From Tetrahymena thermophila SB210 (taxonomy: Eukaryota > Ciliophora > Oligohymenophorea > Hymenostomatida > Tetrahymenidae), in assembly GCF_000189635.1 (NCBI RefSeq), contig NW_002476202.1:62001-126000 (forward strand): a DNA stretch of 64,000 nucleotides, read 5' to 3'. Shown here piece by piece: positions 35,618-60,948 of the stretch. The stretch's first letter is position 1. Every line of letters begins with the position of its first letter. The notes below the pieces were generated by a model, which did no database searches, was not told where the DNA came from, and worked only from the letters and a program-made list of their open reading frames with translations. The translations under genes were made by a program, and so were the position numbers.

Positions 35618-38600
35618 TCACAAAAATTCTTGCTATAGATAAATTTCAGTTGATCTTTTTACCCAAAACTCTTAGGGTTTAGATGATCTAAAGTAGAAAT
35701 AAACCCTCATAGGGAATGAATTAAAAAGATGATTTGTTAAAGAATTGACAACAGGTAATCTGACCACATATTACTTTGAATCATTTGATGCTTTTTTACC
35801 AGCAAATTCAGACTAATTTGTGAAAAAAGTTTTAATTTATTTATATTTTGAATTAGAATTTTAATTTACTTTTTAAACCTTTTTAGTTCCATTTATGAAT
35901 TAATTCTGAGCATAATAAGTACCTTCGAAGTCATATAAATTTTCATCCACAAAATTCATAGACACGTGTGCAGGATAGTTCTAGTATTTTTTAAAAATTT
36001 AATGATTATAAATGCTTCTAAATAAATGAATTCTACCTTGTAAAAGTTGTTCTTATATATTTTCTTTTTGACCATTATTTTCATATTAGGAATTTTATAT
36101 TCAAATTCTCTTGGGTGTTCTATATCTAAAGCATGTTCATTCAGTCTACCATTCTTTATGAAAAAACCATTTATCAACATGGATCCATCTGTGGGCTATT
36201 GAACAGAAGGTTTGTTTTGGATTTCACATTCAATTTTGAGATCAAATATACTCACATTTAATTCTGTTGATTTGTGAGTTAAGTAAGAAGAAATCAAGAA
36301 AAATGGATCAAACATTTAGTCTAGCTGTATTACAGGATACATTCTGCATTTTCTTTCCTCTAATATAAGTTTAAGAGTTTCTAATTTTAGTACCAAATAT
36401 TTCATATATTGCTAAAGATCATTCTCTCTAATTAAGAAAGATTAAATCCACCAATTTTAAGGCACTTTATTTTCCAAGATATTTATCAAAATAGCTTCTT
36501 GCTCAGAAGTTTTTAAAAAACCTGTCTGGAGTAAACTTTTTTCTTGCTAAGAGAAGGAACTTTAACGATACAAGACATATTGTATCACACCATCAAGATC
36601 AGTAATTATTCTCTTAAGTAGTGATTTAGCAATTTAAAGCTCATTTTACAAAGTTGACTAAATAAAATAACAAAAAAAATTTTTTAATTTAGAATAATTA
36701 ATTTAAAAATTACATTGTAAACTGCTTGATTGCTGTCTTTTGTATAATTTGGTTGAGAGTTAAAAAACTGAATAGAATCACTCACCCTATTTGATGATAA
36801 CTATTCTTAAGTACTTAATTTTATTAAATTCTATCCAATTGTGTTCGGTTGCTTTACAAAAACAGATTCTTTTCTAGGATGGAAAAGTGGACTGCTAACG
36901 CTTGGAGGACTCTGTAAAGATTATTAATAAGAGTTTTTACTAGGAGAGTTTAAATTTGGAGAAGGAGTATTCTGTGTATTTTCTACAATAAACTATTTTC
37001 CGAAGAATACCGATTATCTATGGGGTGAGGCAAGAGCAGCAACACTCTTTCTGTGATTCAATTTTAAATTAAGCTAAGGCGAGCTTTGTAAATTATTTAA
37101 CATAATATTTGCTATTGATGGCTGTCTAAGAGATGACTTAATTTATGGAGAGCTTAACCTATTTGTGCTTAGCTATGTTTCACTCTTTTCTATTTAGTTA
37201 AGTAAATTGCTCTTTCTGCTGATAACAGGGGCAGCATGGAGTGGTTTATCAGATAACCATTTCTATAAACCTTTTTTCAAATTGTGATCTTCTGTAAACA
37301 CTTATTTTATTGGAGACATATTTTTTCCTTTTTTTTATTGGTTTTCTTCTTCATTTTTTGAGTCAGAAAAAGAAGAATCAAATGAAGAATCTGAGTCCTT
37401 GTTCTTTCGTAATTTTATTTAAAAGGCATTTCTAGAAATTTTACTTAGTTTAGCTTGCTAAATATTTTGATCTTCACTCATGTCACTGGAACTATCTGAA
37501 TCAGAGTCATTTTCTTCCTAAATATCATTTTTGGTGAATTTACTTGAAAATAAATCTAAATTTTAAGACTTTTCAAACAAAATCTTAAATTCGTTTTAAA
37601 TCTGTTAAATCTTTTGAATAATAGTCATATTTTTGCCTAATAAATCGATGTGGTTAATCCAGTAAGCATAAATTTAGCCAACTTGCTGGAGTATAAAATC
37701 ATCAGAATCACCTAATTCCACATTTTTATCATTAGTTGAAACTAAGCTTACATCCGAAAGACTCTCCTTTTCTTCAGAAGTTTAAGCTATTTAATTCTTT
37801 AACTCCCTAAGAATTTCAGCTTCTTTTCCTAACTATTCTTAGAGTTACACTTTTTTATGTATTCTAGCCATCAATCTTTATGATCTCTGTTAATAAATAA
37901 ATAATGAATAGTTTATATAATTTGACAATTTAATATTAAGTAATACATTGAACCCATATTATATTTCAGTATTAGGAGAAATTTCTATTGTTTAAGGTGA
38001 ATCCAAATTAGGAAGATCATTTATTGTTTTAAATATAGTTTCCTCAGTAGATTGATTGGGTTATTCATAAAACAGTGTGTATTTTTAATCTCCTGAAGTG
38101 TAAATAGTTTATTTGTCAACGCCTTTAAACACAAGTTCTTCCAATAGATCTCTCATTGAAGCAATAGTCCATGTCGAATGAGCATTATATGGCATTTCTT
38201 CAGAAAATATCAATTTTAAGTAGTTTCTGAAGAATAGTGAAGGATTTATTGAGTAATAATTCAAGAAATGGAATCCATCTTCAACTTTTAAAAAGTAAAT
38301 AAAATAATTAAATCGATTAATTAATTCATTTATTAAAGAATATTAGTAAGTATTTACCCACATAAAGAAGATCTAAATCTGAGAAAAATAGAAGCTCACT
38401 TTATTGATAATACTCAGCAAGTTTTCTATGATATTTATGTCTGGACCTTAATATTGAAAAAATGAAGAAGATGTTGAATTTAATTTTATTTGAGAATTTT
38501 TCTAGCATATTAACTGCATGCTTATTTTTTTCTCTCAAGGCTATCCTATCAATAAAGACGCTATGAATATTATAAGAATAATTGATATTTTCATGCCTTT

Positions 38601-41600
38601 TTTATTTTTAGAATCTGTATTTAATTGCTTCATGTATAGGACTTTGTAGCTACTTTCCTAAAGTACTAAAATTGTAATTCGTAGGAAGTGCTTGTGTAAC
38701 TTTCTTTTCTACAAATGCTAGATATTCATGTATCTCGAGAGTATAAAGCACGCTTAAGTTGTTCTTAATATTATCTGGACGATTAATGAACATTTTAAAA
38801 CAGTTGAAGAAAAATTGCTATAGCAGAGTTTGGCTATTGTTTCTATGAGTTTGGACTATGCCAGGGTTTTCATTCAATTCATAACTCTTATTCATTTGCT
38901 ATTAAGTTATCCACACTTTAAAGTATTCATTTTTATTTTAATTGTTATTTAGTGCATTGTTTATTATTTTTATCAATTAACCTAATTAATCATATGGAAC
39001 TGATTTTATATTTTCTAAAACTACCCAATCTCCTTTAATTGAGGCATTGCTTAATTCTTATTTTATTACTTTGTTACTAATAGAACCTAAAGGGATTCTT
39101 TTCACCTTAATATTTTGGCTTTATTTACATGCTTTAAGCTCAAGCAATTCATTGATTGTCTAAATATTTTTTTATTGTAATTTAGTATTTATTTTTTTAA
39201 TTGAAAAATAAATTACTTTATTGAGATGGCCATAGAAAATTATTGTAGGCTTATTGTACCAATTTGCTCTTGAATGAGCATTCAGATTAGTCTTTTTTTT
39301 CAAAAAATAAGTTAAAAAAAGAGAAAAAACTAGAAATATCTTACTTTAGTATGAGAAACAAAAAATTTAGAGAGTTATTTCGTAAGATGGACATTAATTA
39401 TACTTTCTAAAATGTCTGGTCTGAAAAATTTCAAAAATACAGACAAATTAATATCTCCCAATTTATCTTTCATCTTATCTAAATAATTATTCTCATCCTT
39501 TAAAATTTCAGAGTGACTTAAGAAGAATATACTTTTCCATAGATCCTAAATAAATAAATAAATAAGTTAAAATCTAATTACATAACTTTCTTTTCTAAAA
39601 AATATACTTTTTCTATATTTAAACTAGTAAGTGCATTCTAAAGTTCTTTGCTTCTTAACACTTAAGAAGAATGAAAAATTGCTTTGTAGGAATTAATACC
39701 AAACCACATTAAATCATTATCATAACGAAGATTATCAAACTTGGATTTTATAACAGGAAGACCAAGTGCAGGTCTCTTAATGTAATTATTTTCTCTTCCT
39801 AGCTGTATAATAGAATCCATTCTATCTATCACGCTAAATTGATTCAATTCTTAAGACAAGTAAGATTTATTTTCTTTATTTTTTGCTTTAGATTCTTATT
39901 CATCTTATTCTTACAAAGATAATTTCTATATTTTTTATAATTCAAATTGCTTTTATGAGCTAGTTTTTTCTTTTGTATTTTAGCCACCCAACCTATTATA
40001 ATATTATAAATTAACTATTTAATAACATAGCAAAAATATTAAATTTTCAATTAAAATTTTTATATCATTAAATTAATGAATCAATTAAATTAAAATGACA
40101 TTTGTGAGCTATAAAATCTTAAATTTAATATAATAAATATTTAAAATTAAAAAAATTCAAATAATTATTTAAATTGTTTAAATAAACAAAAAAATTGTTT
40201 TACTCATTGTTTAGGTTGAATTCTTATTCCATCCTAATCATATAATCTTTATCCTATACATCTTAGTTTCTTAAATTGGGGATATCAATGATTTATTAGC
40301 TTATCTTATTTTGTTCTTTAAACTAAATCAAAAAATTGCTCTAATGAACTAGCTTTAATTAATTTTATTTTTATGGTAGAGGGCTGTTAAAATCTTCTTC
40401 TTTAATCATATAATCATTAGGTGAACCCATCGATGAGCTACAGACACTATATTATTTACTTCTAGATGGTGTGTTTTCAGAATCGTTTTAATCTCCATCT
40501 TTTGATTACGAAGCATTTAAGTACTCTTGAGAATCTTGAGAAGAGATTTTTATTTCATCAAATTAAATGTTTTGCTATTTATCATTATTTGACTCAATAT
40601 CATTTATTTATTAAACAATATCTTTAGTTTCATTTTCATTTTAGTCATTTGATTCAAATTATTATTATAAATTCGTTTTATTTACTTTAACATTTTCACT
40701 AGTGCTTAAAGCCAATTTCTATTATCCTTCATCTTCTATATATTACTAACTATTATGCTCTTTATAAGGATCTTAGTTTAAAGTATTGTTATTGCTAGCT
40801 TCTTAATTTAATTATTGGCTTTCATTTATTGATTATTCTTATTCTTGCTCAACTATTGAGCTCACTTTCTTTTATTATAATTTATATTCCTTATAATTTT
40901 AGTTTTATTCTTCTTATTCGAGTTTTTTATTGCTTAAAATTCTTATGTCTGATTCTTACAATCCATCTTCTTAAAACTCAACAACTGACTCAATGAAATT
41001 TTTTTAGTCAGATTATTTTTTGGTCACTTAGTTGCCTAAATTGTCATAGTATTCACTGGTAGCTCTAGTTATCTTTTATATTTTTTCTTAGTTTGAATCC
41101 TTATTTTCTTCAAGATCATCCTAATCTGAATCTGGTCCATCCATTAATTTTTAATAAGTATTTGACTAATTCCTATTTTGAACTTCATTCAAAGAAGATA
41201 CCTCTGTTTCAATTTATTTTATATTTTGTATTTAATTATTTATTTGATTTTCAGAATTTTAAGAATTTTAAGAATCTATTTTATCTATTTATTATTAATT
41301 TATATCTTATTATTACAAAATTTATGAATTTTCTAATTTAATTTCCTTTTCAGTTTCTGAGCTTAAATCATCTACATCTTAATCGGAGTTTATATCCTAA
41401 ATATACTCTTAAGATTGCTCAATTTTTATTTATTCATTGTTTTAAATTTTAAAATATTCTTCTTAAGGTTTGAAATAATTAACATTTTTTGAATTAGATT
41501 CTTGTATTTAGTCTAAACTAAATTCTTGTATTATATTTTTTTTAGAATAAAATGAAGATTTTTGCATTAATTGTTATGATGGAATAGATTTTAGTTCCTG

Positions 41601-44600
41601 GATCTTTTGTGTAGAGTCTCTTCTTATTTGACTAAATTGTTTGAATGAATTATGAATATTTTTAATAATTTTGGCCTTTTCTTGGTCGTTCATAATTTTT
41701 TCTTCAAATTAGTAGCTGAAGTTAATGAGAGGAGCAATCAAATTATCATATGACCTTTAAAATTTGAAATTAAAAAATCATTTTACATTAATATATATTT
41801 TAAAATTATTGAATTTTTAATTAAAGAATACCCATAGAGATCTACTAATGATGTGATAAACGAATCCCAATATCTGTTAGTACTTAACTTGCTAAATACT
41901 AAATTTTATATAGGTTTGACTCTCTACTCAAGTAAAACTTTCTGTTAAAGATAGGTATAATTAATCTATGTTTTGTCTGTTAAAGCAGACATTTAGAAGA
42001 AAAAGGAAAGAGTTAGCTACCAGACGGTCTAATGGTCTTCCCTTAATGTGCAGTACAAGTAATGATAGAACATCGAAGCAAATCTTTTGTTAAAATGATT
42101 TGTTTAATTGTTGCTGATTTAATTCAACTTTAAGCAGTCACACACTTATTTAAAAACTAACAAAAAATTTTCTTCACTATATTTAATGCTTGAATCTTCT
42201 TTCTCTATTTATGTGACAACTTCTTTGTAACTTAATTTTAAACCATACAAAATCTCTACAAGGATTTTGAATTTCGAAACGATACTCATCAGTTTTTGAG
42301 ACTAAATAAATTAAAAAATGAATTATTTTAAAATATTAATCTAATAATTTTACTGGATATTCAGGTGATAGAGAATTGTTTGATTAGAAATCAATAATCT
42401 CAAAATTAAAAAAGCAATACTATGGTAAATTATTTTCTAAGTCATTAGAAGATGCTATAGCTTCACTATCAGCTTATGATACTTAGCTAAAAACTGTATT
42501 TTGTTTTTTTAGCTATGAATTCTTTTCTTTCAAAGTTTATTGTCTTTTAAAACTGGATTATCTTTAATACTACGGAACTTAAAGCTCTTCATCTTCTTCT
42601 TTAATATTTTGCAAGTGCTAGCCTATTTAAGAATGCAAGTTTACGTCACCACAAATTTCTTAATAATTCTTGCTCTGCTTTCTTTAATATTCTCCTTATT
42701 TACTACCTAAAGAAGAATTAGATTTATCCATATCAATACTATTCCCTAGCTCCATATTTTAGAAATTAAGCATTAACTAATCTTTTTCAACATCTTCTAA
42801 ATTCTTCATAATAGTCTGATTTGAAACTTACCCTATTTACAAAAATTGATCGTCTTCTCCAAAATTATCAGTAAATCCCTCTTTTGTCTTGAAAGAAAAA
42901 ATTATCAATATAAGTAGTCTAATTATAAATTTTTACTGCTGCCTAGTTAATTATATGATTAGGAAGTAGTTGAATAAGTTGATTCCAAGAATCTTTTTCA
43001 CTTAAACTTAATTTTGAAATAATAGGTAATATCTTTTCAAGTGAGTAATCTTGTTTAGATAAAACTTCTCTCTTAAATATTTCCCCTTTTATCAACTTTT
43101 CTTTTTCGGTTTAGTAGAAGGTATTCAAAATATTATCATAAACGAAGCTGCTGAAGAATTTTTTCTATTAGAAAATAAATTTTAAATTTGTTAAGTTATT
43201 TAAATAATCTTACATCTTAAAATGATAAATGAACAAAAATGGATGCTGTATTGAAACTTTTTATCAAAAAGCTAGAATAACTTGAAGTAATGATAATAAG
43301 TCTAAATTAAGAATGCAATTTAATTCTCTTTTAGTTGAAAGTAAAATGCTCATCTAGCTTCTACTAATTTTACTGGTTTTTAAATTATACAAGACTCTTA
43401 ATTAGATTCTTATATTTAAACTATAATATAGGTTGAATAAGATCTACTAAAGTCTCATCAGGATTGTTTAAAACCAGATAAGAACCTTTTAAAATTGCAT
43501 TTTCTACATTCTCCAAACTATCTTCGTCTACAGTGCTATATTCAATATGCATACTGCGCTTCTATTTTTGAACGCATTAATTCTGTAGATATCTATTTAA
43601 TTTTAAAAAATTTTAAAACAAAAAAAACAAAAATTAGCAAATAAATTAGCAACAATCTATAAAATAAACTGTTTTCCAAATTATTTAATTTATAGAAAAA
43701 AAATTTAATAAAAACAGTTTAAATTAATTTTCACTTAAGAAGCAAGCATTAAAGCCTCAAAAAAATTTTAAAATGTTAATTTGTTAAAAATTTAGCTAAA
43801 ATAAAATTTTTTTATATCCAATTTACTAAAAATATTTATTTCAATATATTAAATAAATAAGAATATAAGTACTTTTTCAAAAAACTTGTTTAGAAAAAAC
43901 TTAAATTTAAAATAACTGGTTTGAAATAAATGATTAAGAATTGAAAATAAATCTATGGGTTTGCCTAAAGATTATTTAAATTTCAAAGAAGAAAGTATTT
44001 ACTATAAATATAATCCAGTTTCATCTGTGATGCAAAGAGGAAGAAGATCAATACCAATCAAGAAACTGATAAGAGAATACTCATTTATGATGCTAATTCC
44101 TAAATCGGTTCCATTGATTAGTTATTCAAGATATGCAGTTGGACTATCTAACAAAATCTTTAAAAAAAAATATAATAATCATAATTTTAATTAAAAATAT
44201 TTACTTTATAGAAAGGAATATTTAACTTTTTATTTTATTAAAGCAACACATCAAATAGATTTTCCCTATAGCAAGCAGGATATTTTAAAGCAGATAAAGA
44301 ATAAAGAGCAATATCATAAGCGTACTTTGCTAATTCTCCTTCTTAAAAAGTTAAAATTGGATTGCATTCTTGTCTGTTTTTATTATTTAAAAAAAATTAA
44401 TTTATTAAAAATAAAATAGTTTAAAATAAAAGTAATTAGTTTTTAATCTAAAAAATAATAATTTTAAATGAATAAAAAATCATCCTCAAGTAATTTTTCT
44501 TTTGGAAATTATTTTTTCAAATATTAAAGTTGAAATTGTTAAATATTTGTTTAAATTTGAAATTTTTTAAGATTTAAACAACTCTTTATTTATTTATAGG

Positions 44601-47600
44601 ATTATTCAACTATTTATTTTGCTATTAAATCTTAAAGCTAACATTTTTATATTTATAGAATAATAAATATGAGCAAGAATATTGAGGTAATATTTATTAA
44701 ATATATTTTGTAGTTAAATTTTACCTATAGTAGTGTATTGTTTTTAAAAGTTAGCATAATAGAAGATTGATATATCTAAAATTTTTGAATGCATTTTAGT
44801 AAGTTTTTTTAGCTGTTTCTAGCTTATGCAAGATCTCATTTTTTTCATCTTTTATTTCTTCTAAGTAGATTCTATGAGATTCCATCATTTTTTGTTCATC
44901 ATATGATTAGTGCATATCATTTGATCCGCTTCTGTTAAACCTTCTAGATGATAAATTAGTTTAATTTATAATTTTGCTTGTCTACATCGACTAATGCTCA
45001 GATAATGATAATTTTTAGTCAATCGGATTATATAGATGATTGTTTATAGATGATTTTCTTTTACCTTCACGTTGAAATTTTTCTTTTTCGTGATTAATTT
45101 AAAGTTTAGAGTAATTCATTTTGTAATTGCTAAAATTTTTATAAGTTTCATGGGTCTAATTTTATTAAATATAAAAATTAAATCATTTTTAAACAAAATT
45201 AATGAGTTAATAAATTATTTATTACCTTTTGTAAGTTTTCGTACTGCTTTTTTATATCAATGTATTTCATTTTATAATCTAAAAGCTCTTCTAACAATTA
45301 CTTGAGTTTGTTATTGATAGGCTGCTTAATCATGTCAATATTAATAATTTGAGATACATTTTTTTTTGAAGAAATTTAAGCTATAGTACTTTGTAAATTA
45401 TTTTAAATTAGTCTCGCAAGATGAGGCACGTAAAATTCAAATTCTTTTTGACTCTTTATTGAAGTTTAGAAGTAATTTATTTCAAAGAGTTCACTTACTC
45501 CTTTTTCTGTTTACCAAAATTTATTCTAAATTTCTTATGTAGCAGGCTCATTAATAAGCTTGTAGATATCATCTTGTTCAGAGCTGCTTTTTTAGTTACT
45601 CTTTAGCAGGAAAGAAAAATGGTCATTAAAGTGTGTAAATGATTTTGGGATTTAGTCTTTAAGTATTAAATATTCTTTGTAATTATCAGGATTAATTTCT
45701 ATTACGAAACTTACATAATCTTTTAGCTTTTATCTCAAAATATAAATCATATGATTTTCTACTAAGTTCGGTTTAAAACCTCCTAGCTTAGATTTAATAT
45801 CTTTTTCTGAAATGTTAGCTTCCATTTACTGCAAACTATTTGATTAAAAATTAAAAGATATAATAATCTACTTATTTATATTTTTGGATTATCATCTACT
45901 CCTTTACTTATATATTTGATCATTTTTTCATTTATAAAATTTAATTTATCTTCTGCAAATTTATATATTTTAATTTATAAATTTTACGTTGTAACTTTTT
46001 TGACTTGTGACTACCTCCAAGGTTCTAATAATTACTTGATTTACTTTTAACTGAGAATACCTTCTAAATTTGAATTTTAGATTATTATTTTAATGATTTG
46101 GAAAATCTCAAATATCCTATTGAATTCCTTGCTTTTTAAATCAGATATAGTAAATTAAATTAAAGTATGAACAGGGTTTCCATCAATTATTCCTTTTAGT
46201 ACATCTACATAATTTTAAATTAAAATTAATATTTAAATATAACAAATAAGATAATTTTTTACCTAAAATAATTTGTAAAAAGAGAGAAACACAATTTTCA
46301 GAGGAAATTTTTATAACTATACAATTTGATCCCATCAGATAGCTGATAAATTTGATAAGCTCAGACTTTGAGGTAGGCGTATATAGAGAAAGATTTTGTT
46401 TCATTATGTAAATGTTATTTAAAATAGCGGATAAATCACCTAAAATGTTTTCTACACCTCCTTATTAAATCTGAATATCCCAATATGCATGTATGTTAAA
46501 GTAGTCACTTATAATCTCTTTTTCGTTCTAAGCTCCATTTCCTTCTTTCTAATTTTTGCTAGCTTGTGTTTCATTTTTTTACTGAGGAGGCTAAAATAAA
46601 TATTCAAGGAGTTTATTCTAAAGAAATGAAATAAAACTGTTTTAATCTTCATGGATGAAATAAAATTAGTCCCTTTCAGAGATATTGTGCATAAATCTAT
46701 TCTAATCATAATCAATATTCAATTAAGATAAATTTAGATTTTCAATCTTGAGAAGAGAAGCTTGCTGCTAATTAGAATTTTATGAGTTTGTTAAATTATG
46801 TGGAATAAAAATCCTTTTATTATTAACTTAGTTTTATTTATCAATTTTTTCATCATAATAATAGCTCATTGTTTTAATAAAAAATTTATGGATTTTTGCA
46901 GGAAACTTTTGAAATTTCTACTCAGAGAGCTTCTATAGTTACTTTAGTAAGCTCTCTTATCCTTTGTCTATTTTTTAAGTGAAGTATTGATTTAAAAATC
47001 TTGTCCTATTTTCAAATTAGTCAATACTTTCTAATCTAAAATATTATCTTTCCATTTCTATATTAACTTACTTTGACATTCTAACTCTGTTTACTTATCC
47101 TAACTTAGCAAGTCCTTTAGTCTCTAAAGTTTTCCTATTTAACATATTTAATAATTTTTGTTAATTCATTCTTATATTGTAACAAAATTATTAAAATTGA
47201 GAGAAATAATAAATACTCTTAATTTTTTTATATAAAATATTGATGATTATAACTTATTCAACTAAAAATTGTTAAATTATATTTTTTAACTATTTCTTTT
47301 GTAGAATTTAAAATATTAAATTTTTTATAATAAAAAACTCAATCAATAAATCTATAAATAAAAGAAAGAGCTATTTTTTACATGAAAATTAATAAAATGT
47401 TAAAGAATGATAAATAATTTATGTTTTTTTTTATTTTCTAAAATATCTCATTAAATTAAAAACATATCTTCAGGGTCAATATTTAATTTTTTTGAGTAAT
47501 AAATGTTATTAGAATTAAAAGCATAAAATAATTAATGAATTACTTTGTCTTTTTAGGGCTGTATAAAGTCTCAACTAGAAAATTTTAAATTTCAATAGCC

Positions 47601-50600
47601 TTATTTTATAATTGTAGGTTTTCTGAATTAAGATTTAAATTTGGAATATTGCTATTTTAGTGCATAGCAAAAGAACCTTTTTTTAAAGGTGAATTTATGT
47701 GAATGTTATCCAATTCTTCATCACTTTCAGAATCTGATAAGTTATCTTTGATGAGGTTAAAAATAAATTAATTTTTTGCATTAGTTTTTTGGCTGCTTTT
47801 AAGTTTTTCTAAGAAAATAGGGTTTTTATTCCATGGCAAGCTATCTAAAAAGCAAGTATCTAGGATATATGTCCACATTTTATCAAAGAAAGTTTCATTT
47901 AGGTATCCATTTTAAACAATTTATTGATGAGAAAGAGTAGAAATTATCAAAGTAAGAACTTTGTTTATATTGAAATTTATCTATTTTTTTAAATATGATT
48001 TAAATTAACCTCAAATAGTTCAAAATAAAAAATACTTTAAAAATCTGAGTTATTTGAGTAAGCTTAGGGATACTGCTCATATAATTATGAGCGAATTTTG
48101 CTAATTATTTCTAAAGGAAATCCACTGCTAAAATATTCGCTTACATTTTTTCCTTGGTATTAAACATAGGTGAAGTTTTCAATATTTCCATAAATATTCC
48201 TGTTAAATGGTCTCCATTCATATCAGGAAACTTTAGCATGAACATTTCCCTTAAGCAAGATCCCAATTCAGTAAATTTCTTATTTATAAAATAAAATTAA
48301 GAAGTTTAACATGAGTGAATTTTCTTTTTTTATTTCAATTTAAATTTACAGAAAAATCTTCTGAGAATAGCTTTCTAGATGAGTAATTACAAATTACATT
48401 GCAATTTTCAAATTTCAAAAATCTATTTTTCTATTAGGAAATCCAACCACCATGTACTATCAGAGATCTCAAACAACCAATTATACTTGGCCCCTCAAGA
48501 GATACAATGTTTAAATCATCTATGAATGCATATGAGCACTTACCTATCTCTGATTGCTTAGTCTAAAAATTCTTGAAGCTTAAAGAGTTTTCAACAAACT
48601 TTTAAAATTAATTAATTTTAGTATTCCTGAGTAATTAAATCACATTTATTTTATAAGTATTTTTCTGCAAATGCTCTCTAGATGTATTTTAAAGAAAAAT
48701 ATTAGATATTATTGAAAGAAGAGGAATATAAAAGAGATAAACCTTTCAAGATATTAAAAGAGCATAGTCTTTCCTGCTTGAGGGGTAGAATATACGAAAA
48801 TATTTTTTTTGTAGCCCATCAAGTAATCTATCAAATACTTAGTCATTTTGAATGGCGCAGAGAGATATACAACGTATTTGTCTTATGTTGGTAGCTGATA
48901 GACGATCTCATTATTATTTTCCATTAATTTCTTCATCTCTTCTACCTGCATAGCATTTTTATTTAGTCTAATAATCTCACTTAATTCTAAATGATCATTG
49001 CTCAAAGAACTATCAAGCAAAGGAATATTTTCAGGAATTTAAAACTCTGAAATCCTCATCCAAGCTAATTCGCTTATATCATAAACAAGATCAAGTACGC
49101 TCAAAGACTATTTAAAATAGAAAAATATTTTTTCCAACAAAAATTATTAAGAGCGAATATTTTAAATTCAATTAAAAAAAACTTATCAACTTTTTTCTAG
49201 AATAAGATAAAAAGAAAGAATTTAAGTTTTTGTTGAAGAATAAAAGAGCATTTTGTCACTATGATTCAAAAAGATCTTAAAATTGAGTTTTTCTTATATT
49301 TCAAATATATTATTTACCTTATTCTATTTTAGCAATTTGCTAAAGTTTTAACAGGCTTTGAATGAGGAAGAAAATATATTTTCATGAGCTAATTTAAGCT
49401 TTTTAACGCATCCTAAGCAGTGCTCTGTGAGCTATGATAAGAAATTAGGGTCTATATAACTGCTGCACATTCCTTATACAATACTAAAAAGGAATATTGA
49501 TTCTACAGGAGCTCTAAATTCTTTTTCTAAATAGCTTGCATCAGTATTTAATTAGTGTTAAGAATTATTTAGATCTGCATCTTTGATTGGTGAAACTTGT
49601 TTTTTGTTTTGGAGAGAAATAAATGTATAAAAAGCTTTGCTTCTAACATCCTATTAAAAGATTTAAATTTTAATATTAAGTATAATTTTAAATAAGAATT
49701 AATTACTTTCATAGTGGATGAATTGCTTGTGATTGCATATTTTCCTAAAGCTATCATAGTTTTACGGAATTCATTCATAAATATCTCTAGAAGTGATAAG
49801 AAATTTTGCTGCTAGTGTAAGATTATATCAACTATAGCTCCTGGGTTATTGAAAATTTTTTTAGCTTCGCCAGAAGATGTTTGTTCTAGGCTGTCTTTCA
49901 AAAAAACTAAAACAGGTTCAAATAAATATACGTAACAAGTTCTAAGTATTTTCTCACAATAATTGAAAAATTTATTTTAGCTAATTAATATATCCAACCA
50001 ACGTTCAAAATCATTTTTTATGCTCCAATGAAACCCTTGAGAAATAATATTGTTGTTTGTAAAATTATAATTTTTCTATACATAATTATTATATCCGAAA
50101 TTAAAAATTTAAAAGTTTCCTAAGCAGCCAGGAGTAATGTTGTCTAATGAATCTAAATTTAAGATTAGCTTTAGAGTATTTTACAGTTAAATTTACTAAC
50201 CGTTATCGAAGAATAATATTCTTTAATGAATACTCTTTATCATTTGGTCTATAAATTTCGATTAATTCCTATGATATAAACCAAAATTTATTAACTTATT
50301 TTAGAAATTCTATCAAATTTTTTAATAAAAAAACAATCTTTTTTGTAAATTTTTAAATTTCCAGCTTTGGTTGAAAAAAATAGGTTTTGAAATTGTTTGT
50401 TTTTTGATTTATGAATAAAAGTTTTTAAATGAATTTTTTAAAATATGAAATAATTTCCATTCATTTAGTTAATTTTAGTATTAATTTTTTTAATGTAATT
50501 TCTTTTTAAATTAATTAATTTTTTTACCCTTTGAAATTTGTATTGCTTGTTTCAAATATGATCCAATCGTTTAAGGTGAGAATAGTTTCTGGGCTTTTGA

Positions 50601-53600
50601 TTTTTCCTTGTTGGTTCTTTTTCTTTAATAATTTCTCAGTTAAATTTAAAATAGGAGCAAGTAAATATTTTACCAAAAAAACATTAGATTCTATTGATTT
50701 TGATTTTAAATTTTAGATTTTATTATGATGATCCAAAGGGTTAGCCTATGAAGTTATAAAGTTAAGGTAGTTAGATCTATAATATTAGTTAAGTACTTCT
50801 GAGTATAAGCTATTTTCACTCATATAAGTTATAGAGTCAAGTAGTTACTGTAAAATACCTTTCCTCCAAACTCCATCTACATGCTCTCCCATTAAAAAGG
50901 TATAATCATTTGCGTCAAGAGTTATGTAGTGCTATAAATTAAATATGTTCGTTTAAAATTTAATAAAAAAAACAAATTTTCATTCATTTACTTTGTAAAA
51001 TTATGCTTTTTCAATAAGTGAGTTAACATAAGCTGCTGCATTCAAGGCATAGTCTTTGACCTTTGAATTAAGACCTACAACTAGGATTGTTTTGTTAATA
51101 TTTATATTGAATATCATATCTAAAATAGTATCGATAAATCTTTCTGAAGGCTTTATCTTATGAACTTTTTGGAAATAATCTATTATATGTTGCTCAAAAT
51201 CATCATCACGGTTATCATCTTTATTTTACTGCAAAGTCGAAGAGGAAGCTTAAGGTGTTTAAAGAATTTAAACAGTCTTTTATTTTCCGTCAATAAGTTC
51301 CTCCTCTTCATTTCCCCCATCATCCTAAAAATCTTTGAATAAGTACCCTTCACTAACCTAACTCTCAGGGAATGCTAATTTATAAATAAAGCTTAAAATA
51401 ACAAAATTGAATGCCAGTTTTATTTACTTTTGATAAACAAATTATTAAGAAGCTTAAGATGGAATTAAGAAAGAGCATGTGCATAATATGCATTTATTGC
51501 TGAATATAAAAGAGTGTAGTTTTCTATTTCATCTTCATTTGATACTTTCTTTTAAAACAAAAAATACTCTGCATGGCTTATTATTTTCATGATAGTATTT
51601 GCATTAGGATTAAATAGATGCTGGTTGAACTCTGTCTAAGAAACTTAATCTAGAGTGCTATTATTTATTAAGATAGTCGTATTTTTATGAGATAAGATAA
51701 TCTTTTAAATAAAAATATCAAAATTACATAACATCCAGTTGCTTAAATGAATCAACTAAGAAGTGAGAATTGCTTAAGCAAGATGAGAAAAGTTAAAAGA
51801 AAACGTGCAAGCGTTGAGCTGTTTCTGCTGGCTTTATGAAATTCATCAGAGTTAGTTTAGCAGCTAAAATAGTTTGAATATCTGGTTAGACAATACTAAC
51901 TGTTCTGAAACTTTCCAAGATGTTTGGTATTTGAGAAAATTGCAAAACTTATGAATCTTGTCTCACAGTGAAACTTGCATACAAGCCCCAATGCTCACTC
52001 ACCTAAATTTTTTTATAAATTTTCTCATGATTTAGTATGTTTATAAATTAAATTACTTTGATAGGGCAGTTATTACTATCCAAAATGTCTGTCTTTGAAA
52101 TACAGGAGTTTCTAATTTAAAAAATGATATTTGCAAGAGTAGATATCATACCAACATTTAAAAATTCGCAATTCTAAATAAGAGTGATGTAACCTCCTTG
52201 AGCAGTTCCAAGGAGAACTTAATTCAAAGAAGAGAAATCATTTTAGTCTGAAAACTTCCAAGTAAAATAAGGTTTGGCTAAAATAGTAGCTAAATAGCTA
52301 ACTGTTGATTATTTCCCTGATGATTAAGGACCTCTGATTAAAATAGATGTATTCGTTGATATAGCTCCAATAATATTAAAAAGCATTCTTTCAGTCTAAT
52401 ATGTATTCACAAAAGTGTAATGGTCTCCTGCAATAAATTCCCATGTGTAACCTCTCTATTATTAAAAAAAAATTAATTAAAACTAAAATAACTTTTTAAA
52501 CTAAATAATTGCTTAATATAAAAAAATTCATCTCTTGGATGAATATTGATATATTTATGCTATCCTATAGATAATAAAGATAATAATGAAATAAATTTAA
52601 TTTATGCCTTGTAATTCATGCACATCAAGTTAACGTTTATTAACTCAGGATTATCAATTAAACTAAAGTAGTAAAAGAATTCAGAATTTTCAGAAAGATT
52701 GGGATAGTCTGTCGACTCTCTATTATCTAAAGCCAATTTAGCAGATTTTAGCATATGTTAGATTATTTCTTACTAATTCAACTAAAGGAGAGGATTTTCC
52801 TTTTGATTGTGCTTATTTTATTGGAGAATTTTCAAGATTTAATTTGTTTCCACCTCCACTGAGAATTTTGGAAGACCTAAATAATCAAAACTTGCTAAAG
52901 TATCTACTTTTTAATCTATAAAGCGCTAAAGAATATTTTGATGATTGAGACTTTGCATAACCAAACCTGAGAACTTTAACAGCTCATTCTATTTGTTAAA
53001 TAAAATTAAATATATAAGCAAAAAATAATTAATATATACCTTTGAAAGTCCCATTTACATTTGATTATTAATAAAATTTTACATATAAATCCTTATTTTC
53101 TGCAAAAAGTCACCAAGGTTAAAGTCTGGTACTTCATCATTTTCTTCACTGTTTAATATTGTAGTAGTCAGGTCATGATAAAAACAAATGTCAATATTCA
53201 AATAAGCAATTTAGAAAATAATTTCGTTCTTGAGATGCAATAATCTATAAACTTCGTTATAGTCCAAACCTAGTCTGGTCAAGGTTTATGTATTTTTAAG
53301 GAACTACTTTCTTAATAAATATCTCATTGATTCTTCCAGCTTCATTTATCCATCTATTACATTCTCTATTCCTTTAGAAATGTCTATATTTATTTTAGTG
53401 TCCAATAATAAAACTTCATCTAACTAGTTTTACTATGATTATTTTATTATTATTTTATATTTTTTTAAAATTTAATGTAATTTACAATAGACTCTATGTT
53501 GAATATGTTCGAATAATTAGTTATGGTAAACTGCTCGTTTTCTATATTCATGTTAGCTTCCTTGCAAGTACTAGAAACCTTAAGTGACTTAAATCCCTTA

Positions 53601-56600
53601 AAAACAGGTAAAAAAAGCTTGTTTACCATTAACTAAGGATTAGAGGTTTGATTACATAACCTTAGTATCTCTATTATACCTTCATCACTCAAAAAATATA
53701 ATCTACTGCATTTAGATCTTAATCTGTTAAGTACTTTTTTTACCTCCTGAACTAGATTATTGCTCAAATTTTAGGTTTCTAGTAATCTCCTTCTGAATTC
53801 ATCACTTTGAGGGAATGATCTAGGCATTTTAACATTTTATTAAAAACAAACCAAGATTTTAAAAATTTACCTTTCTTAAGATTCAGTTTCTGAAAATAGA
53901 TTAAAAATATTTAATCCTGAGACAGTTAAAATTTCAAAATGCTAGCTGTAATCATCGATAAGTGACTACAAAAGCTTTATCAAATCATTAGAAAAGAGTC
54001 TATCAGCCTTATTATAGATTTATTTCTTTAAATTTGAATTTATTATTAAAAATTATTTACAATATTTATTTTAGTGTTTTCATATTACTGGAACTGTATA
54101 AATAGAGGTATGTAATCTAAGAGAGTATTTTGTACTTTATTCATTATTTTTATTACTTTCTTACCATTTCTTGCTAATTTGTGAACAGAATTCATCCTCT
54201 TTTTGAAGACATCAATAAACGACTTAAAGCAAAAGAAAATTATTTTAAAAAAAAATTTTTATTTAAATTTAAAAATTACTAAATTTTTTATCAAAATATT
54301 TGCTCTAAATTTAGCTTCTGAAAGATTTTTTATGACATCTTTTGTATTTTTTATTATCTTAAATGTAAATTCCGAAGAAACATCTAAGTAGTAAGGTAAT
54401 GATCTTAAGAAAGTGTCTTTTAAGATTCCTTCAATTTTTTACAACTCTATTTCAATCTTTCATTATAAAAAATTAAAAGTTTAACATTTTTAAATAAATA
54501 AAAATTGAATATTTATCAATAAATAATAAATTTGATTAATAAAAATTTTAAATCATAATTAATTCAAAAAAGAACTATTAATGTCATCATTTGTTTTTAA
54601 ATAAATGAATTTATGTGTAAAATCGGATATAATTACTTAGTAATCTTACTAAGCTATCAGATGAAGCTTATTAATGAAACTAGAATAATTTTAGATATCT
54701 TCGTCTATAAGTCTTTAGAGAGTAACAGAGCCAGAATCTATCTTTCTGAACTCTTATTAATTTTTGTTTTTCTGAATTTCTTCAATCAACTCATCCCAAT
54801 GTCTTTACTTAAAGCAAGTATCTCTCAATTAGATAATAATATGAGTATACTTATTTTTTTAAATAAAAAAATTATATTCTAATTGAATAAAATAAATTAA
54901 AAAGTAAGGTTTTTTACATTGTTAAATTTCTAGATCTCTTCTTCTAGTTACTTAATTATTGTGATAAAAAGTGGATTATCTTTGAAATCTAAAATTAAAT
55001 CTGGAAGGAGCTAAAACCCTTCATTCAAGGTATCAACAACTTCTTTTGACTCCATAAATACTAAAGGTCTTGTCGTCCATTCTTCGTATCTGAGTTTCCA
55101 TCTTTCTGCGAAATCCCACAAGTCATAATATTTCATTAAATCGTTTAAGCATATTTCTATTTCACAAAAGTTTGTTATTGGACTCATTTTTAGGTAATTC
55201 TCAAATTAATTAAGCTCTTGTGCTTTTTGGTAGATTTCATCAAGTTCATTCCTTAAAAATTAGATTTAGAAAATTAACTTACTTTTATTTTTTTATCTAA
55301 TTTATTTACTTTAAACTTTTTGTCTAGGAGGAAAGAGCATAAATATTATCAAGAGATCCCTATTATTTAAGTTCATCTGATAATTTCTTTTACTTCTAGA
55401 AGTTAGCTAAAAGGTTTACGATACTCTCCTTTAAATTTTTTTCAAATTTAGGTCTAATTTTCAAAAAAATTAAAATGAGATTTTATGTTATTTTAATTAA
55501 CTAATTATTCAAAACTTTAATTCTCACTTTTAAATTAAATTAAATTCGATTTTTTAAGATTTTTTGTTACTTTTATGTCTGTTTAATTTGTTTTTTAAAT
55601 TTTTTGCATTTTAAATTAAAAATAGTATTTAAAATATTTAAACCAAAGATATTTAATAATATAATTTTAAAATATTCTGATGTCATCATTTTTATTTCTA
55701 AACATTGTAGATCCAGTTAATAAATTTAATAAATTTTATATAATTATTTAATTTATTCTTTTTATTGAATTATTTATTAAAATTTTTTATGAATGCAAAA
55801 AAAAAAATATATTTTACTTGATTTGATAAAGCTTTTTGAGCTACTCTTATTCAATATTTCTAAGCTATAAAATCCATGATCTACTTTCAACTTGCATTTG
55901 AATAGTTTCAAAAGAAATTTCTAAGGAATACTCATCAGATACTTTCATGAGATCATTTATATAATTAATTTAATTTTAGAGATCTGTGTATTGCTCTAAT
56001 ATTGCTTAGCTTGATAGGTATTCAGAAATTTCTGAATAATCTTTAATGCTTACTGGGTTTTTTTAAAGTCTCTCTGTAAAATTTTAAACTTATTATCTTG
56101 TAGTTTAAAGCTAAGAAACTAATTTATCCTATATTACTTTTAATTAAATAAAAATGATTTTAGTGAAAGAACAATATTAATAAAAATAATACTCTTTTTC
56201 AATTGATTTATGTAGAACTAGATTTGTTGAATGTACTCTTGTTTTAGTGTTTCCGTTTTAAGCAATATCAAACCAAAATTTAAGTAGTTAGGTAAACCTA
56301 TTTTGAAAAACATTAAATCCTTTTCAAGTATATTTATTTCTTCACAAATAAAATATAATCCTAATGACTTTTTATCGAATTCGCTCTATATATCTTTATT
56401 TTGAATAAAAGTAATTAATTAGTTTTTTTAGATAAATAAAAGACAAACAATACCTTAAATATAATATCTTTTTTGAGTAAAGTGGAAAGAAAAGCTGTTT
56501 ATAAGAATTAAAAAAGCATAAATTCCATAAAAACTCCAAGGCATTATTTCTTATAGGCAAGATTTTACTCCTTCACTATCTATTTTAAATTCTTCAGATT

Positions 56601-59600
56601 CAAACAATATTGTTTCTTATGAACCTATTTAATATATTAGATAAAATTCGAAATGCTAATTTTTTAATTTATTTTTATTTTCTGTCATTTAAAAAATAAA
56701 ATAAAAATTACCTATCTAATAGAGCTGATTGATTTTTTCAAGAGGAATGTTGAAAGATTCTTTGATCAATTTTTCTAAAGAATTTAATGAAGGGGAGGTT
56801 GTTGTTACTAAATATTGAAAATTGATGAAATCAAATCTTCCTTTGGTAATACTTTCGAATTCATTCTATTTTTCATTAAAATATTATTTGGTTAAATTAG
56901 TTTTTCCAACTTAAAGCTTTACCGTTTTATTTTCAGTTTAGAAATCTTCAATTTGATTTGAAATTACTTTATTTCCACGATTTACTAACTTTTTATCTTC
57001 TTTTTACTGAATGTTTTATTTAATTAAAACTATTTCTGCGGTTTCGTTTTATGAATAAAATATTTCTCTGTATTTTTTCCTTTACTTTTTTCTTTGTTCA
57101 TAATTTTTCTTTTCAGTTTTGATTTCCTAATTACAAAAGCGTTTAGTTAACATTTAATATTTAAACACAAAAAAATACCTTATTTAGAACCCAATCAATT
57201 TCATATTTAGCAAATTAGGGAAGACCATTCAAACTTGGGTTGACGAAATTGAGCTAAATCAAGGGCTTTTAGTTTTCTAAAAATTAATTTTATAATGATT
57301 GAGCGATTGAATTTATAATTTATCTATCTTGGCTCTACAGATTTTTATAAATAGGGAAAATGATTGCATGAAAACTTTCCTCTATTCCTTTGTTAGTTAA
57401 TTATTAAGTTTGTTGTTATTGCTATATCAAACTTTATTCATTAGTTGGTAATTATAATTATAAATTAAATTTTGCAGGATTTTCAGAATATCTTTATGAA
57501 TCTATTTGTTTTTTGGAATTTTAATTTGTAATAAAAACATTGCTATCTTATTTTTTAGCATCTTTTGAATTATTTTAAGGTGATGAAGTTGAATTTGGTT
57601 CAATTTAGTTGATAAAAAGTGAGTTTTCTCTTTTTTATTAAATATTTGAGATAAAGTTTAGCTGTAATTTAAATAGTCTATCCTCAACTTGTTAATCTGT
57701 ATCCAGCAGCATCTACTTTCTTTACTAAGTTCTTTTAATGAAAAACTACTCAGGTAACTTTTTGATAACCTTAATTCCAATTTCTGGTAATGGTAAGAAA
57801 GCATAAAATTTTTCTATTTCTTAAATCAACGAAGAAGCGCTTTTCTTTAATAAAATAAAAATACTTAATAATTAAAATCAAAATTTTTATAATTAAAAAT
57901 ACTTTGAATGATTTTTCGATAGCATTTTTTATTAGCTTGTTTGATAATGAAAATAAAAGTTTAGATGAATCAACACAAAGCTATGGCTGAAAATCTATTT
58001 TCATTTCATCAATACCTTTCTCTACCTTATAAGCTAATCTGTCTATTTACTCAATAGCTCTCATAAATTCTTGAGTGTAATTTTTGTTTACTTCAAAGCT
58101 ACTTGCCTTTTTTTATATTATTTAAATATTTAAACAAAAGATTTGATTTTAATGAAGAAATTAATCAATCAATTACTTGTATAGTCTTTTTAAATGTTCT
58201 GAATTACTTAAAATAATCTAAAGACTCAATGCTAGAAATAAATCCAAGCATTACTTAAGATATTTAAAGAGAAGCCACTTCCTAAATACTTAATTTATTC
58301 TTGTTAAAAACTTCTATCCAACTGTATAATTTCAGATTGTTTTTGTCTTAAACAAGATGAGGCTTATTTGTAATATATCTTGTGATTTGTTGTCTTTAAC
58401 AATTTGACTCCTATCCTACCTCTTAAAATTCAAATTTTTCTTTATCTTTCAACGGGAGCTTGTTAACAAAGTTGTTTGCACTCAAGTAAGGCAAATATTT
58501 TTAATAGTAAGAGTTTACATCATAGTGGACAGATTCAAATTCAGTATCAAATTTAACTAGCTAAAATCTGTACAACCCTACAACTTCCTATATTATCTTT
58601 TCTTTTTTCTCATCCTTATTCACATGATTTTCCAATATGCTATCAATTGTTTAGCTTAAGCGATCAATAGGCAAACTTATAGCTTCTAATGCTTTCTTTT
58701 AATCAATATGCTATGTCAGTTATTTATTGAACAAAAACTCCTCTCTCTTTTTAACAGCTGCACGGTATCTTTAATTCAAAAAAATAAATTTTAATAAATA
58801 AAATTCTCAGAAACAAACAATCAAACAAATAAAAGCTAGTTATAAAACAAAAGTCAAACAATTCATTGCAGTAATAATTTGATCTGATAGATTATAAAAT
58901 AGCTCAATAATTGATGACTGATAATTCAAAATGAGCTTAATAGCTAAGGAATTGAATAATATGATTGTAAAAAAATGAATTAAAATCAAAGAATTATTTT
59001 ATATTTTTAAAGCCAAACTAATTGAAGGAATAATAAATAAACAAGAAAATAATAAAAAAATGAAATGATTGATTTATGAATACCTTTTTTTAAATTCTGC
59101 AGGATCATCAAAGTAAAACATTAGATTAAGTCGCTTAACTTTTTTATATTTGGCTTTTTAAATATTGCTCCATTGAATAGTAAAGAATTTTGTTTATTCA
59201 TTGTAATCAAGTACTATGCAGTTTTTCCAAAATACCTTTCCGTTTTTATCTTACCAACGAGACATTGCTTATTGGGGTCCAGCTGAAAGCATTTCTTTGA
59301 AATCTGTATCTTGAAGGGCATATTCATCGTATTAATCTAAGGGCTCTATCCTAAAATTATTCCTATGTGGTATATTAATATTTAAGATATTTGAATCTTA
59401 TTCATCTAATGGCTCTAACAGTAAAGTAGGATCGCAAAAATCGTCTTCAAATGTTTAGTTGATGCCTCTATTCTACTATTAAAACATCTCATTGAAATCA
59501 CTTACTAGGGTATCTTCGTTTAGATATGAACCTTAAATAACACTATCTTCTATCATCTTACTTGAATTATTTTAAGGAGATAAGCTGATATGCTTACTGC

Positions 59601-60204
59601 CTTTTAAGCTTATAGATTGTTAATTACTCATAGAGATATTGTTTTTTATGGTATTAGAAGGTGTGCTATTTAGAGGCTAAATGATACTTTTTCTATTAAA
59701 AGGACTAAGCATATTTGAAAAAATACTATCCTTTTTATTGCCTTAGTTGTTGCTATGAATAACAGACATATCATGAATTTCTAAAGTTTGTAAATTAATA
59801 TTTTTTTACTTTTATTCTTTACTGTTAGATTATTCAGACTACCAATATTCTTAGTTTTATTAGTCATTTATGATATTAATAAGCTGTTTTTAAAAATGAT
59901 CATCTTCTTCATTTGTTTATTAATTATTATTAACCTAAAATAAAATTTCACTTTAGTTTTTACGCAAAATAAGATTCTTATCATTAGTCTTGTTTAATGA
60001 AAAGTTTAAATTTTATTTATCTTCAAATATAGAAGTTTGTTCGCTTAAGCCTGGTCCAGCAATTATACGAGAAATATTTTGCAGCAAATCTTCTGTTTCT
60101 CTTTAATTTTTAATTGATTTCTCCATTAATGAATGAACTTAACGATCTGATTACATTTTATTAATCTTAGGAAATCTTATTTACCTTTCCTAGCTATCAA
60201 GCAT
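35618..60204 (-). CDS. Divergent dynein heavy chain, intron-rich (about 24.6 kb)
   Basis: The earliest in-frame ATG is 60204 (60156 has the more typical AAAATG context) and the TGA is at 35620-35618. Dynein landmarks occur in canonical order. N-terminal motif: WQDKNGKVFWKN...VKRLNLMFYF, near 59150-59250. Linker: HWDELIEEIQ-like, 54.8 kb. AAA1: 52.3 kb. AAA2: 51.1-50.8 kb. AAA3: 48.8-48.4 kb, with IDDLN and HGGW. AAA4: 46.4 kb. Stalk coiled coil: 45.3-44.7 kb. AAA5: 44.4-43.2 kb (ENAILKGSYLVL). AAA6: 39.5-38.8 kb (FLKFFRPD, GDWVVLEN). C-terminal domain: 38.2-35.6 kb (SPNTEI, PTDGSMLINGFF, then a terminal KPQEFWVKRSTEIYLQQEFL). Nucleotide sites of AAA1, AAA2 and AAA4 are degenerate. Disordered inserts lie at about 42.9-39.9 and 37.9-36.7 kb. 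It is probably an axonemal-type chain with reduced or no motor activity. Not every intron was resolved. Confidence 0.85.
36720..37890 (-). other. Ser-rich disordered insert inside the dynein C-terminal domain
   Basis: After the family signature SPNTEIQYGFNVLLNI the frame enters about 390 residues of disordered sequence with acidic-serine clusters (DSDSDSSSDMSED) and repeated SP/RKS motifs (LNHRKSVAALASPHRQS, PRKESVF). A 61-nt intron then leads back to canonical C-terminal helices beginning STLQNELQIAKSLL. SP and RKxS motifs are typical phosphorylation sites. Confidence 0.65.
39870..42900 (-). other. Long low-complexity acidic inserts between AAA5 and AAA6
   Basis: Coding segments here are rich in Q, N, E, D and S, for example MDGPDSDQDDLEENKDSNQE and NNDKQQNIQFDEIKISSQDS, interleaved with short structured pieces (HIKGRPLDRLVANS near 42030). 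Several hundred residues lack hydrophobic core positions. Dyneins normally join AAA5 to AAA6 by a compact helical segment. The inserts are in frame with the dynein exons on both sides as far as I could follow. Confidence 0.6.
44690..45430 (-). other. Stalk region: coiled coils with disordered tip
   Basis: An amphipathic segment (LKQLLEELLDYKMKYIDIKK) followed by KEKFQREGKRK and a Ser/Asn/Gln-rich linker with SSRRFNRSGSNDMHQ leads into a second helix (YLEEIKDEKNEILHKLETAK). The order fits CC1, tip, CC2, but the roughly 120-140-residue globular microtubule-binding domain of motor dyneins is not visible between the helices. Confidence 0.5.
46180..46410 (-). other. AAA4 module of the dynein-like chain, weak P-loop
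   Basis: QNLSLYTPTSKSELIKFISY (46398-46339) replaces the canonical HLLLVGxSGxGKxxLxR stretch. The Lys-Ser pair survives but the glycines do not. A short intron separates it from IQFTISDLKSKEFNRIFEIF, which stands where IMDESN would be. Only the Asp might be conserved. Confidence 0.6.
48430..48900 (-). other. AAA3 module of the dynein-like chain, best preserved site
   Basis: The P-loop at 48789-48766 reads STPQAGKT, with only the first Gly replaced. Walker B at about 48532-48508 reads AFIDDLN, the usual dynein AAA3 signature, followed by IIGCLRSLIVHGGW, matching the family's LLRQ...HGGW. In motor dyneins AAA3 is a regulatory ATPase. Here it is the only module that looks able to bind nucleotide. 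Confidence 0.75.
50800..51110 (-). other. AAA2 module of the dynein-like chain, degenerate
   Basis: A beta-strand NKTILVVGLNSKVKDYALNA (51100-51040) sits where the AAA2 P-loop belongs, without G-x4-GK[ST]. After an intron, FLMGEHVDGVWRKGILQQLL lines up with the canonical FDGPVDxxWxxxxxxxLD signature. VD, W and the final L (the next residue is D) are kept, but the Walker B Asp is Met. Confidence 0.65.
52130..52400 (-). other. AAA1 module of the dynein-like chain, degenerate nucleotide site
   Basis: The Walker A position is at 52335-52306 and reads RGPQSSGKQS, where dyneins have GPAGTGKT. The Lys is kept but the Thr/Ser is Gln, encoded by TAA. Downstream, at the place of the catalytic CFDEFNR Walker B, the protein reads YITLIQNCEF, so both acidic residues are gone. 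The flanking context (GGYITL...ISTLANIIFQIRNSC) still follows the AAA1 pattern. Confidence 0.75.
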
Positions 60205-60397
60205 AAGCGAATGGATTCCTAATGTTTGTTTCTTTGTTTATTAATTAATTTATTATTAATATAAATATAAATATCAATTCATTTTATGCTTTTCAAACAT
60301 AGTTTGATTTAAAAAATATTTTTTGTATGCTTAAGTTAATATGTAGAACAAACTAATTAATTAATTGACTTTGTTGAATGTTAATTATAAATTTCTA

Positions 60398-60948
60398 TCA
60401 AAAGTAAAATTTTACTTAAATATTATCAAACTTTCTGCTGTAGAATTATTTTGCATTTATTTTAAATTAAGGACTCCCTACTGCTGTAGCTCTTGCCTAT
60501 TTCCTTTTTATGTTTGCAATTTCCATTTTATCATTTTCGCAATTTAAATAATCTTAATCTAAGATCTTATTATTTTCTGTGTTTTTGACTATGCTTATAA
60601 AACTTTTCTCTTTAATGGTTGATGGTATTTAACTCTTTTCAAGATTTTTCTATCCTTTCATAGTAGAGAATGACTTTAGTTTCCTTTTTAGTCCTCCCTT
60701 TTTAAAAATATAATTTATAAATTGATTGCTTTTTATTTTTGCATTTTTAAATGGCATGCGTGCTTGATTATTTTGTAAAGTTTTACTTGTTGATAGGAGT
60801 TTCCCCTTTATTCTCCATACTTCTTCTTTAATTCTTCTAAATCTTTCATAGCCAAGATGGCTTAGAAAGGAACTTTTAATCCAGATTGGATATTTGGTAA
60901 GCTTTGAGAATTAGGTAAACTATTTCGCTTTGAATTCTCACTATCCAT
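60398..60948 (-). CDS. Small basic protein of unknown function, 153 aa
   Basis: Exon 1 is 60948-60787 (MDSENSKRNSLPNSQSLPNI...) and exon 2 is 60697-60398, joined across an 89-nt GTAAAA...AAAAAG intron; together 154 codons including TGA. The exons are less AT-rich than their surroundings. The protein is hydrophilic and basic, with a short helix (AILAMKDLEELKKKYGEQ), a Lys-rich centre (GGLKRKLKSFSTMKGQKN) and no membrane segment. Without splicing the frame also stays open through the intron but gives an unlikely composition, so the spliced form is preferred. It ends 193 bp before the dynein-like start, on the same strand. I do not recognise a family. Confidence 0.6.

Follow-up and report, generated by a model that had tools for sequence, protein, structure and literature searches.

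The stretch of DNA analysed here, which we call the window, is 64,000 nucleotides of Tetrahymena thermophila SB210 (contig NW_002476202.1, positions 62,001 to 126,000). Its minus strand carries a giant pseudo-dynein heavy chain gene, referred to below as C297. By its predicted protein, C297 is a structural member of the dynein heavy chain (DHC) family, with a DHC_N2 linker, AAA modules and a Dynein_C domain in order. We consider it fairly probable that this protein is no longer an ATP-driven motor and that it has a non-motor role, likely ciliary, with ring and tail kept as a scaffold or regulator. A preliminary description had called the chain a pseudo-motor. That proposal is strongly supported at the sequence level, and it extends to at least seven genes of the same genome with the same AAA1 loss.

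Catalytic motifs of the motor ring

The dynein power stroke is impossible without hydrolysis at AAA1. Each of the genome's 25 intact DHCs has GPAGTGKT as its AAA1 Walker A motif and keeps the two Walker B acids (D,E). At the aligned positions C297 has GPQSSGKQ, with Q in place of the hydroxyl residue, and Q,N for the two acids; a HMMER alignment gave the same register. The R of SPATVSRCG in AAA2, which we take to be the arginine finger acting for AAA1, is N in C297. It is lost in all seven members of the family described below and kept in 8/8 intact loci with enough sequence. The P-loop position of AAA2 reads GLNSKVKD, and alignment to paralogues revealed no P-loop in AAA4. AAA3 is the sole ring site that keeps GKT (in STPQAGKT, where S replaces the leading G) plus IDDLN. 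These readings bear out the preliminary description, which had listed the AAA1 defects, the lack of a proper P-loop in AAA2 and AAA4, and the retention of GKT and IDDLN in AAA3 alone. As predicted, the C297 protein is without the features that would mark an active motor, namely GxxxxGK[ST] and DE in AAA1, the arginine finger, and a microtubule-binding stalk.

An ordinary active axonemal dynein could look like this if its canonical motifs were masked by wrong splicing or a wrong reading frame. The gene has many introns, its exons are computed, and a six-frame scan is blind to a motif split by an intron. However, the AAA1 Walker A and Walker B positions of C297 both lie inside one uninterrupted predicted exon (52449-52057), which makes their restoration by splicing very unlikely. 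No canonical Walker A, G....GK[TS] or DHC Walker B was found in the six unspliced frames of 35000-61500, a scan that an intron-split motif would escape; IDDLN occurs once in those frames, at 48523. The same loss is also found at the aligned position in six paralogues. Restoration by splicing had been named at the outset as an observation that would overturn the pseudo-motor proposal, and the exon structure and unspliced frames argue against it. We regard an active dynein as extremely improbable.

The Pfam domains of C297 follow dynein order (DHC_N2, AAA_6, AAA_7, AAA_9, D6, Dynein_C), in agreement with the domain order first reported. AAA_7 scored 6.2e-7, and the other E-values are listed in Table 1. 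AAA_9 reached 23.8 bits, which is below the cut-off of 27.4. Ten exons were scanned with Pfam, and four of them gave no dynein domain: the one at the N terminus, one from AAA2, the one with the AAA3 P-loop and that of AAA4. AAA2 and AAA4 were recognised via paralogue alignment alone. The protein also holds long low-complexity inserts.

At least seven related genes

A PF12774 search of the genome yielded at least 73 matches. Clustering these by position gave 25 DHC loci that are strong and five that are weak. The weak five are C297, C273, C114, C214 and C206; a search with the AAA1 of one member added C290 and C140, which were read in part only. Match counts are lower bounds, and the family has at least seven members. 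The idea of a lone odd gene was rejected, given six relatives in the same genome. Table 6 of PMC3341644 gives 25 as the published DHC number for T. thermophila; our 25 intact loci were matched to that set by count only and not by name. One of them, an outer-arm locus, agrees with the gamma heavy chain 7k5b_C at all 290 residues compared; PMC10605206 assigns that entry to T. thermophila.

Both AAA1 Walker B acids are lost in every family member: they are Q,N in C297 and C290, T,N in C114 and C214, K,N in C273, C,N in C140 and K,S in C206. The N at the place of the catalytic E in six of the seven looks like a shared derived change, and it could be used as a family marker in other ciliates. The preliminary description had suggested a comparison of orthologues for shared substitutions; the one made here, on paralogues from a single genome, found the acids lost throughout. 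Walker A is broken in six members.

In a tree of AAA1 from the seven members and the 25 intact loci, the family split had 100/100 support and appeared in 100% of 200 bootstrap trees. The tree came with warnings for long branches and unusual letter make-up, and its subgroup order is unsure. When C334 was added as an eighth row, support for the split was 97/96. C334 (127000-131000, minus strand), a possible further member, is a degenerate DHC-like gene (DHC_N2 5.8e-28, AAA_6 9.2e-9) whose Walker A is gone and whose Walker B keeps D and has G for E. It has no N-terminal tail (N-tail) match and was left out of the tree of 32.

The DDLN of AAA3 is invariant in all seven members, and its retention may be structural. 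Three members (C297, C290 and C140) retain the P-loop lysine of AAA3, and the other four (C206, C114, C214 and C273) have lost it. Nucleotide control through AAA3, as originally proposed, would be possible in the first three; the lysine loss speaks against it in the other four.

A search for relatives in viral contigs gave 112 pattern matches, none of which was confirmed. We found no description of a pseudo-dynein family in the literature searched, although it may be described elsewhere.

Several other observations were made around these loci. The first 432 residues of C13 (351000-359000, plus strand) contain a stretch resembling the DHC_N2 linker (4.6e-25). No AAA1 was seen by eye in its 1688 modelled residues (8 kb), where AAA1 was not searched for, and C13 may be a gene for a dynein tail alone, or else a fragment. 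The C206 paralogue lies near base 1 and adjoins a contig end resembling telomere repeats (GL/GV/GW runs). The modelled frames upstream of C273 and C206 are alike (27.6% over 510 amino acids) and by eye look like cyclic-nucleotide-gated potassium channels, which reflects either a conserved neighbourhood or chance.

Probable purifying selection

Ten pairwise comparisons among the five full-length members covered 4712 columns common to them. Pairwise identity was 21-32%, and permuting one row against C297 lowered identity to about 7% (four pairs). At identical amino acids the same codon was used in 46-50% of cases, where 46-49% is expected if synonymous sites are random (e.g., 0.463 against 0.462). 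Synonymous sites are saturated and the proteins are still alike, and we therefore infer long purifying selection, with all five full-length members being kept and not decaying. The word "eroded" in the preliminary description is misleading in this respect.

These data bear on whether C297 is a pseudogene, unexpressed and in decay, of a dynein that was formerly active. Its AAA1, AAA2, AAA4 and stalk tip are degraded, no other full-length member of the five is as divergent, and its stalk is the only short one among the seven. Against decay stand the conservation of the protein despite saturated synonymous sites and the rank of its AAA1 (27-33% identity) among its better-conserved modules. Across ten modules of C297, conservation is highest in the N-tail (29-34%) and AAA1 and lowest in AAA4 (17-20%) and the stalk (14-19%). 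The joined exons also contain no in-frame TGA in 6466 codons, a result that is partly by construction, since the splice model heavily penalises TGA; the other two sense frames contain 123 and 310, and antisense frames 106-157. We consider a pseudogene highly unlikely.

A shortened stalk

The distance between anchors in AAA4 and AAA5 is 247 residues in C297, compared with 382-386 in four paralogues and 375-376 in two more. The C297 stalk is thus about 130-140 residues shorter than in its six relatives, and it is the sole shortened stalk in the family. The missing part is the tip, and what remains there is low-complexity. The usual microtubule-binding tip therefore does not fit, and it appears to have been lost from the predicted protein. 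A 351-base intron near the stalk could, in our reading, make room for a short AAA5-side exon at most, and not for a tip.

PF12777 gave no match in any of the seven; it likewise fails on C317, which is among the 25 intact loci, so by itself this is weak evidence. In four of the long paralogues the microtubule-binding domain was not recognised either: a profile search of the PDB gave four matches, none a DHC, and a Pfam scan of these four detected no dynein domain. Stalk length is nonetheless conserved among them.

Probable kinship with single-headed inner-arm dyneins

With the N-tail of C114 as query, we found matches in the six other members (seven of seven with the query) and, within the same genome, in the intact loci C278 (2.4e-10), C178 (1.1e-4) and C176 (7.7e-4). 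An N-tail profile had six PDB matches at E up to 1, three of them DHCs: 8glv_JG (2.8e-11), 9e5c_6a (1.9e-6) and 9y6s_6k (2.1e-6), the last an IDAa chain. We take 8glv_JG and 9y6s_6k to be single-headed inner-arm chains. The next match, 7uek_A (8e-4), is no dynein. Among the ten best PDB matches of an AAA3 profile, six were DNAH12, DNAH6 or IDAa, three were unnamed chains and one was outer-arm. The AAA1 of C278, an intact DHC with the N-tail, is closest to DNAH7, DNAH3 and DNAH12. Because N-tail and AAA3 match single-headed inner-arm dyneins best, the family would appear to descend from them.

C297 shares with such chains (DNAH3/7/12 type) the tail, linker, ring modules, C-terminal domain, N-tail and the DD of the AAA3 Walker B. 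It differs in having lost the AAA1 catalytic residues, the arginine finger and the AAA4 P-loop, in its missing stalk tip, in its long disordered inserts and in its large divergence. The preliminary suggestion of a partner in axonemal arms gains indirect support from the N-tail common to inner-arm DHCs and from the best AAA3 matches.

Several observations weigh against the origin and loss of function proposed here. The AAA1 tree allows four placements of the family, with approximately unbiased (AU) test p values of 0.29 (with C278/C178), 0.297 (with an eight-locus clade around C278/C178), 0.383 and 0.463. The tree sets the family apart from the other DHCs of its genome and is compatible with more than one DHC class of origin. 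Family branches are long in that tree, and the best PDB match of the AAA1 profile is DNAH10 and not a single-headed chain. In paralogue C206 the Walker A, GPQATGKS, is formally intact. Within C297, AAA4 homology is weak (17-20% identity to paralogues), and the linker start barely matches one paralogue in a genome search (E 0.007). A PF18199 genome search missed C297, yet the isolated exon scores 6.8e-12. Finally, the C297 copy may have been inactivated recently.

Gene model and feature positions

C297 is predicted to run from 60231 to 35621 in about 47 exons and about 6470 codons. The coordinates and strand first given for it were correct, 60204 being the ATG of MLDSQERQ in our reading. Under the splice model, two small extra 5' exons may put the start ATG near 60948. 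That model combines codon usage and splice-site weights trained on the same genome, and the exons are computed. It gives 46 introns with a median of 62 bases and a GC content of 0.27 in exons and 0.14 in introns. C297 scored 1869, compared with 544-718 for 20 of 20 shuffles and 522 for the antisense strand, a contrast that is partly circular in that the C297 exons were used in training. Genes in the window stay open throughout only when TAA and TAG are translated as glutamine (genetic code table 6).

Table 1. Predicted features of C297, in window coordinates.
Feature	Position	Strand	Basis or remark
Pseudo-dynein heavy chain gene	35618..60231	minus	Computed splice model, table 6; stop TGA 35618-35620
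N-terminal tail domain (W..C.V..YN)	58500..59382 (low end approximate)	minus	Common to single-headed inner-arm DHCs
Linker region (DHC_N2)	52500..55184	minus	Pfam DHC_N2 2e-25
AAA1 module	51730..52449	minus	Pfam AAA_6 5e-21; family profile against PDB dyneins, best 4.7e-25
AAA1 Walker A position, GPQSSGKQ	52309..52332	minus	Within exon 52449-52057
AAA1 Walker B acids, D,E to Q,N	52171..52176	minus	Alignment to 25 intact DHCs; exon 52449-52057
AAA2 module	49707..51372 (P-loop position GLNSKVKD 51052-51075)	minus	Paralogue alignment
AAA2 arginine-finger stretch TPGCLGNFQ, R to N	50109..50135	minus	Alignment with eight intact loci
AAA3 P-loop position STPQAGKT	48766..48789	minus	Alignment
AAA3 Walker B-like IDDLN	48509..48523	minus	Scan and alignment
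AAA4 module, without P-loop	45990..47133	minus	Paralogue alignment alone
AAA4 end and shortened stalk, low-complexity tip	44727..45834	minus	Anchor-to-anchor length
AAA5 module	42937..44372	minus	Pfam AAA_9 2.7e-5 (below cut-off) and alignment
AAA6 / D6 module	38359..39991	minus	Pfam Dynein_heavy 5.6e-9
Dynein C-terminal domain	35621..36657	minus	Pfam Dynein_C 6.8e-12

Elsewhere on the minus strand of the window, giant open frames at 381-8597 and 15720-23030 match the Giardia variant-specific surface protein (Pfam VSP, 4.1e-77 and 1.2e-15) and probably encode cysteine-rich surface proteins. An open frame of 1116 amino acids at 12599-15946, also on the minus strand, matches a teneurin EGF domain (1.4e-28).

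Proposed role and significance

Pseudoenzymes retain their fold and lose catalytic residues under purifying selection. The family resembles them in both respects and differs in that a whole multi-ATPase motor ring is concerned. In the mechanism we propose, the AAA1 losses (Walker B D and E, the Walker A hydroxyl and the AAA2 arginine finger) would end the power stroke, and C297, without a recognisable tip, would neither walk nor grip by its stalk. Ring and tail would stay as a fixed scaffold, probably docked within the axoneme or where dyneins are assembled, and next to active arms the pseudo-dynein might serve as place-holder, spacer or regulator. In C297 and two paralogues, AAA3 may have kept nucleotide binding, as a structural or switch site. 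We favour a role as scaffold, spacer or regulator, likely in cilia, because the tail is inner-arm-like and the ring is conserved. The ciliary location of C297 is the weakest step of this explanation.

A functional non-motor protein outside cilia (in the cortex, nuclei or membrane traffic) could also use the dynein ring as a scaffold. Loss of the tip, together with long low-complexity inserts, would release C297 from the geometry of the axoneme; the N-tail it has in common with inner-arm dyneins argues against this, and we think an extraciliary role unlikely. By analogy, the family might instead correspond, in ciliates, to DNHD1 of vertebrates, a dynein-like orphan chain that sperm flagella need. 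PMC8754002 terms DNHD1 an orphan or ghost gene, and PMC9916431 has DNHD1 variants accompanying a disorganised sperm axoneme. Both are dynein-related and beyond the standard set (PMC8754002), a likeness in general idea. DNHD1 is one gene, whereas the Tetrahymena family has at least seven members with an inner-arm N-tail, and we consider this correspondence quite improbable.

Returning to a non-motor dynein of cilia, we would give even chances to the full picture. At least seven giant non-motor dyneins would stand beside 25 motors, with an inner-arm origin, AAA1 catalysis lost in a common ancestor and two sets of members by AAA3 lysine; C297 alone would also be tipless, a fixed ciliary scaffold or regulator.

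Dynein heavy chains are usually counted and modelled as motors. If the proposal is true, the dynein inventory behind axoneme structures would be incomplete in a major cilia model, and a dynein ring could come under selection for a function other than that of a motor. Tetrahymena genes are easily tagged and deleted, and the family would then offer a tractable system for the role of DNHD1-like orphan dyneins.

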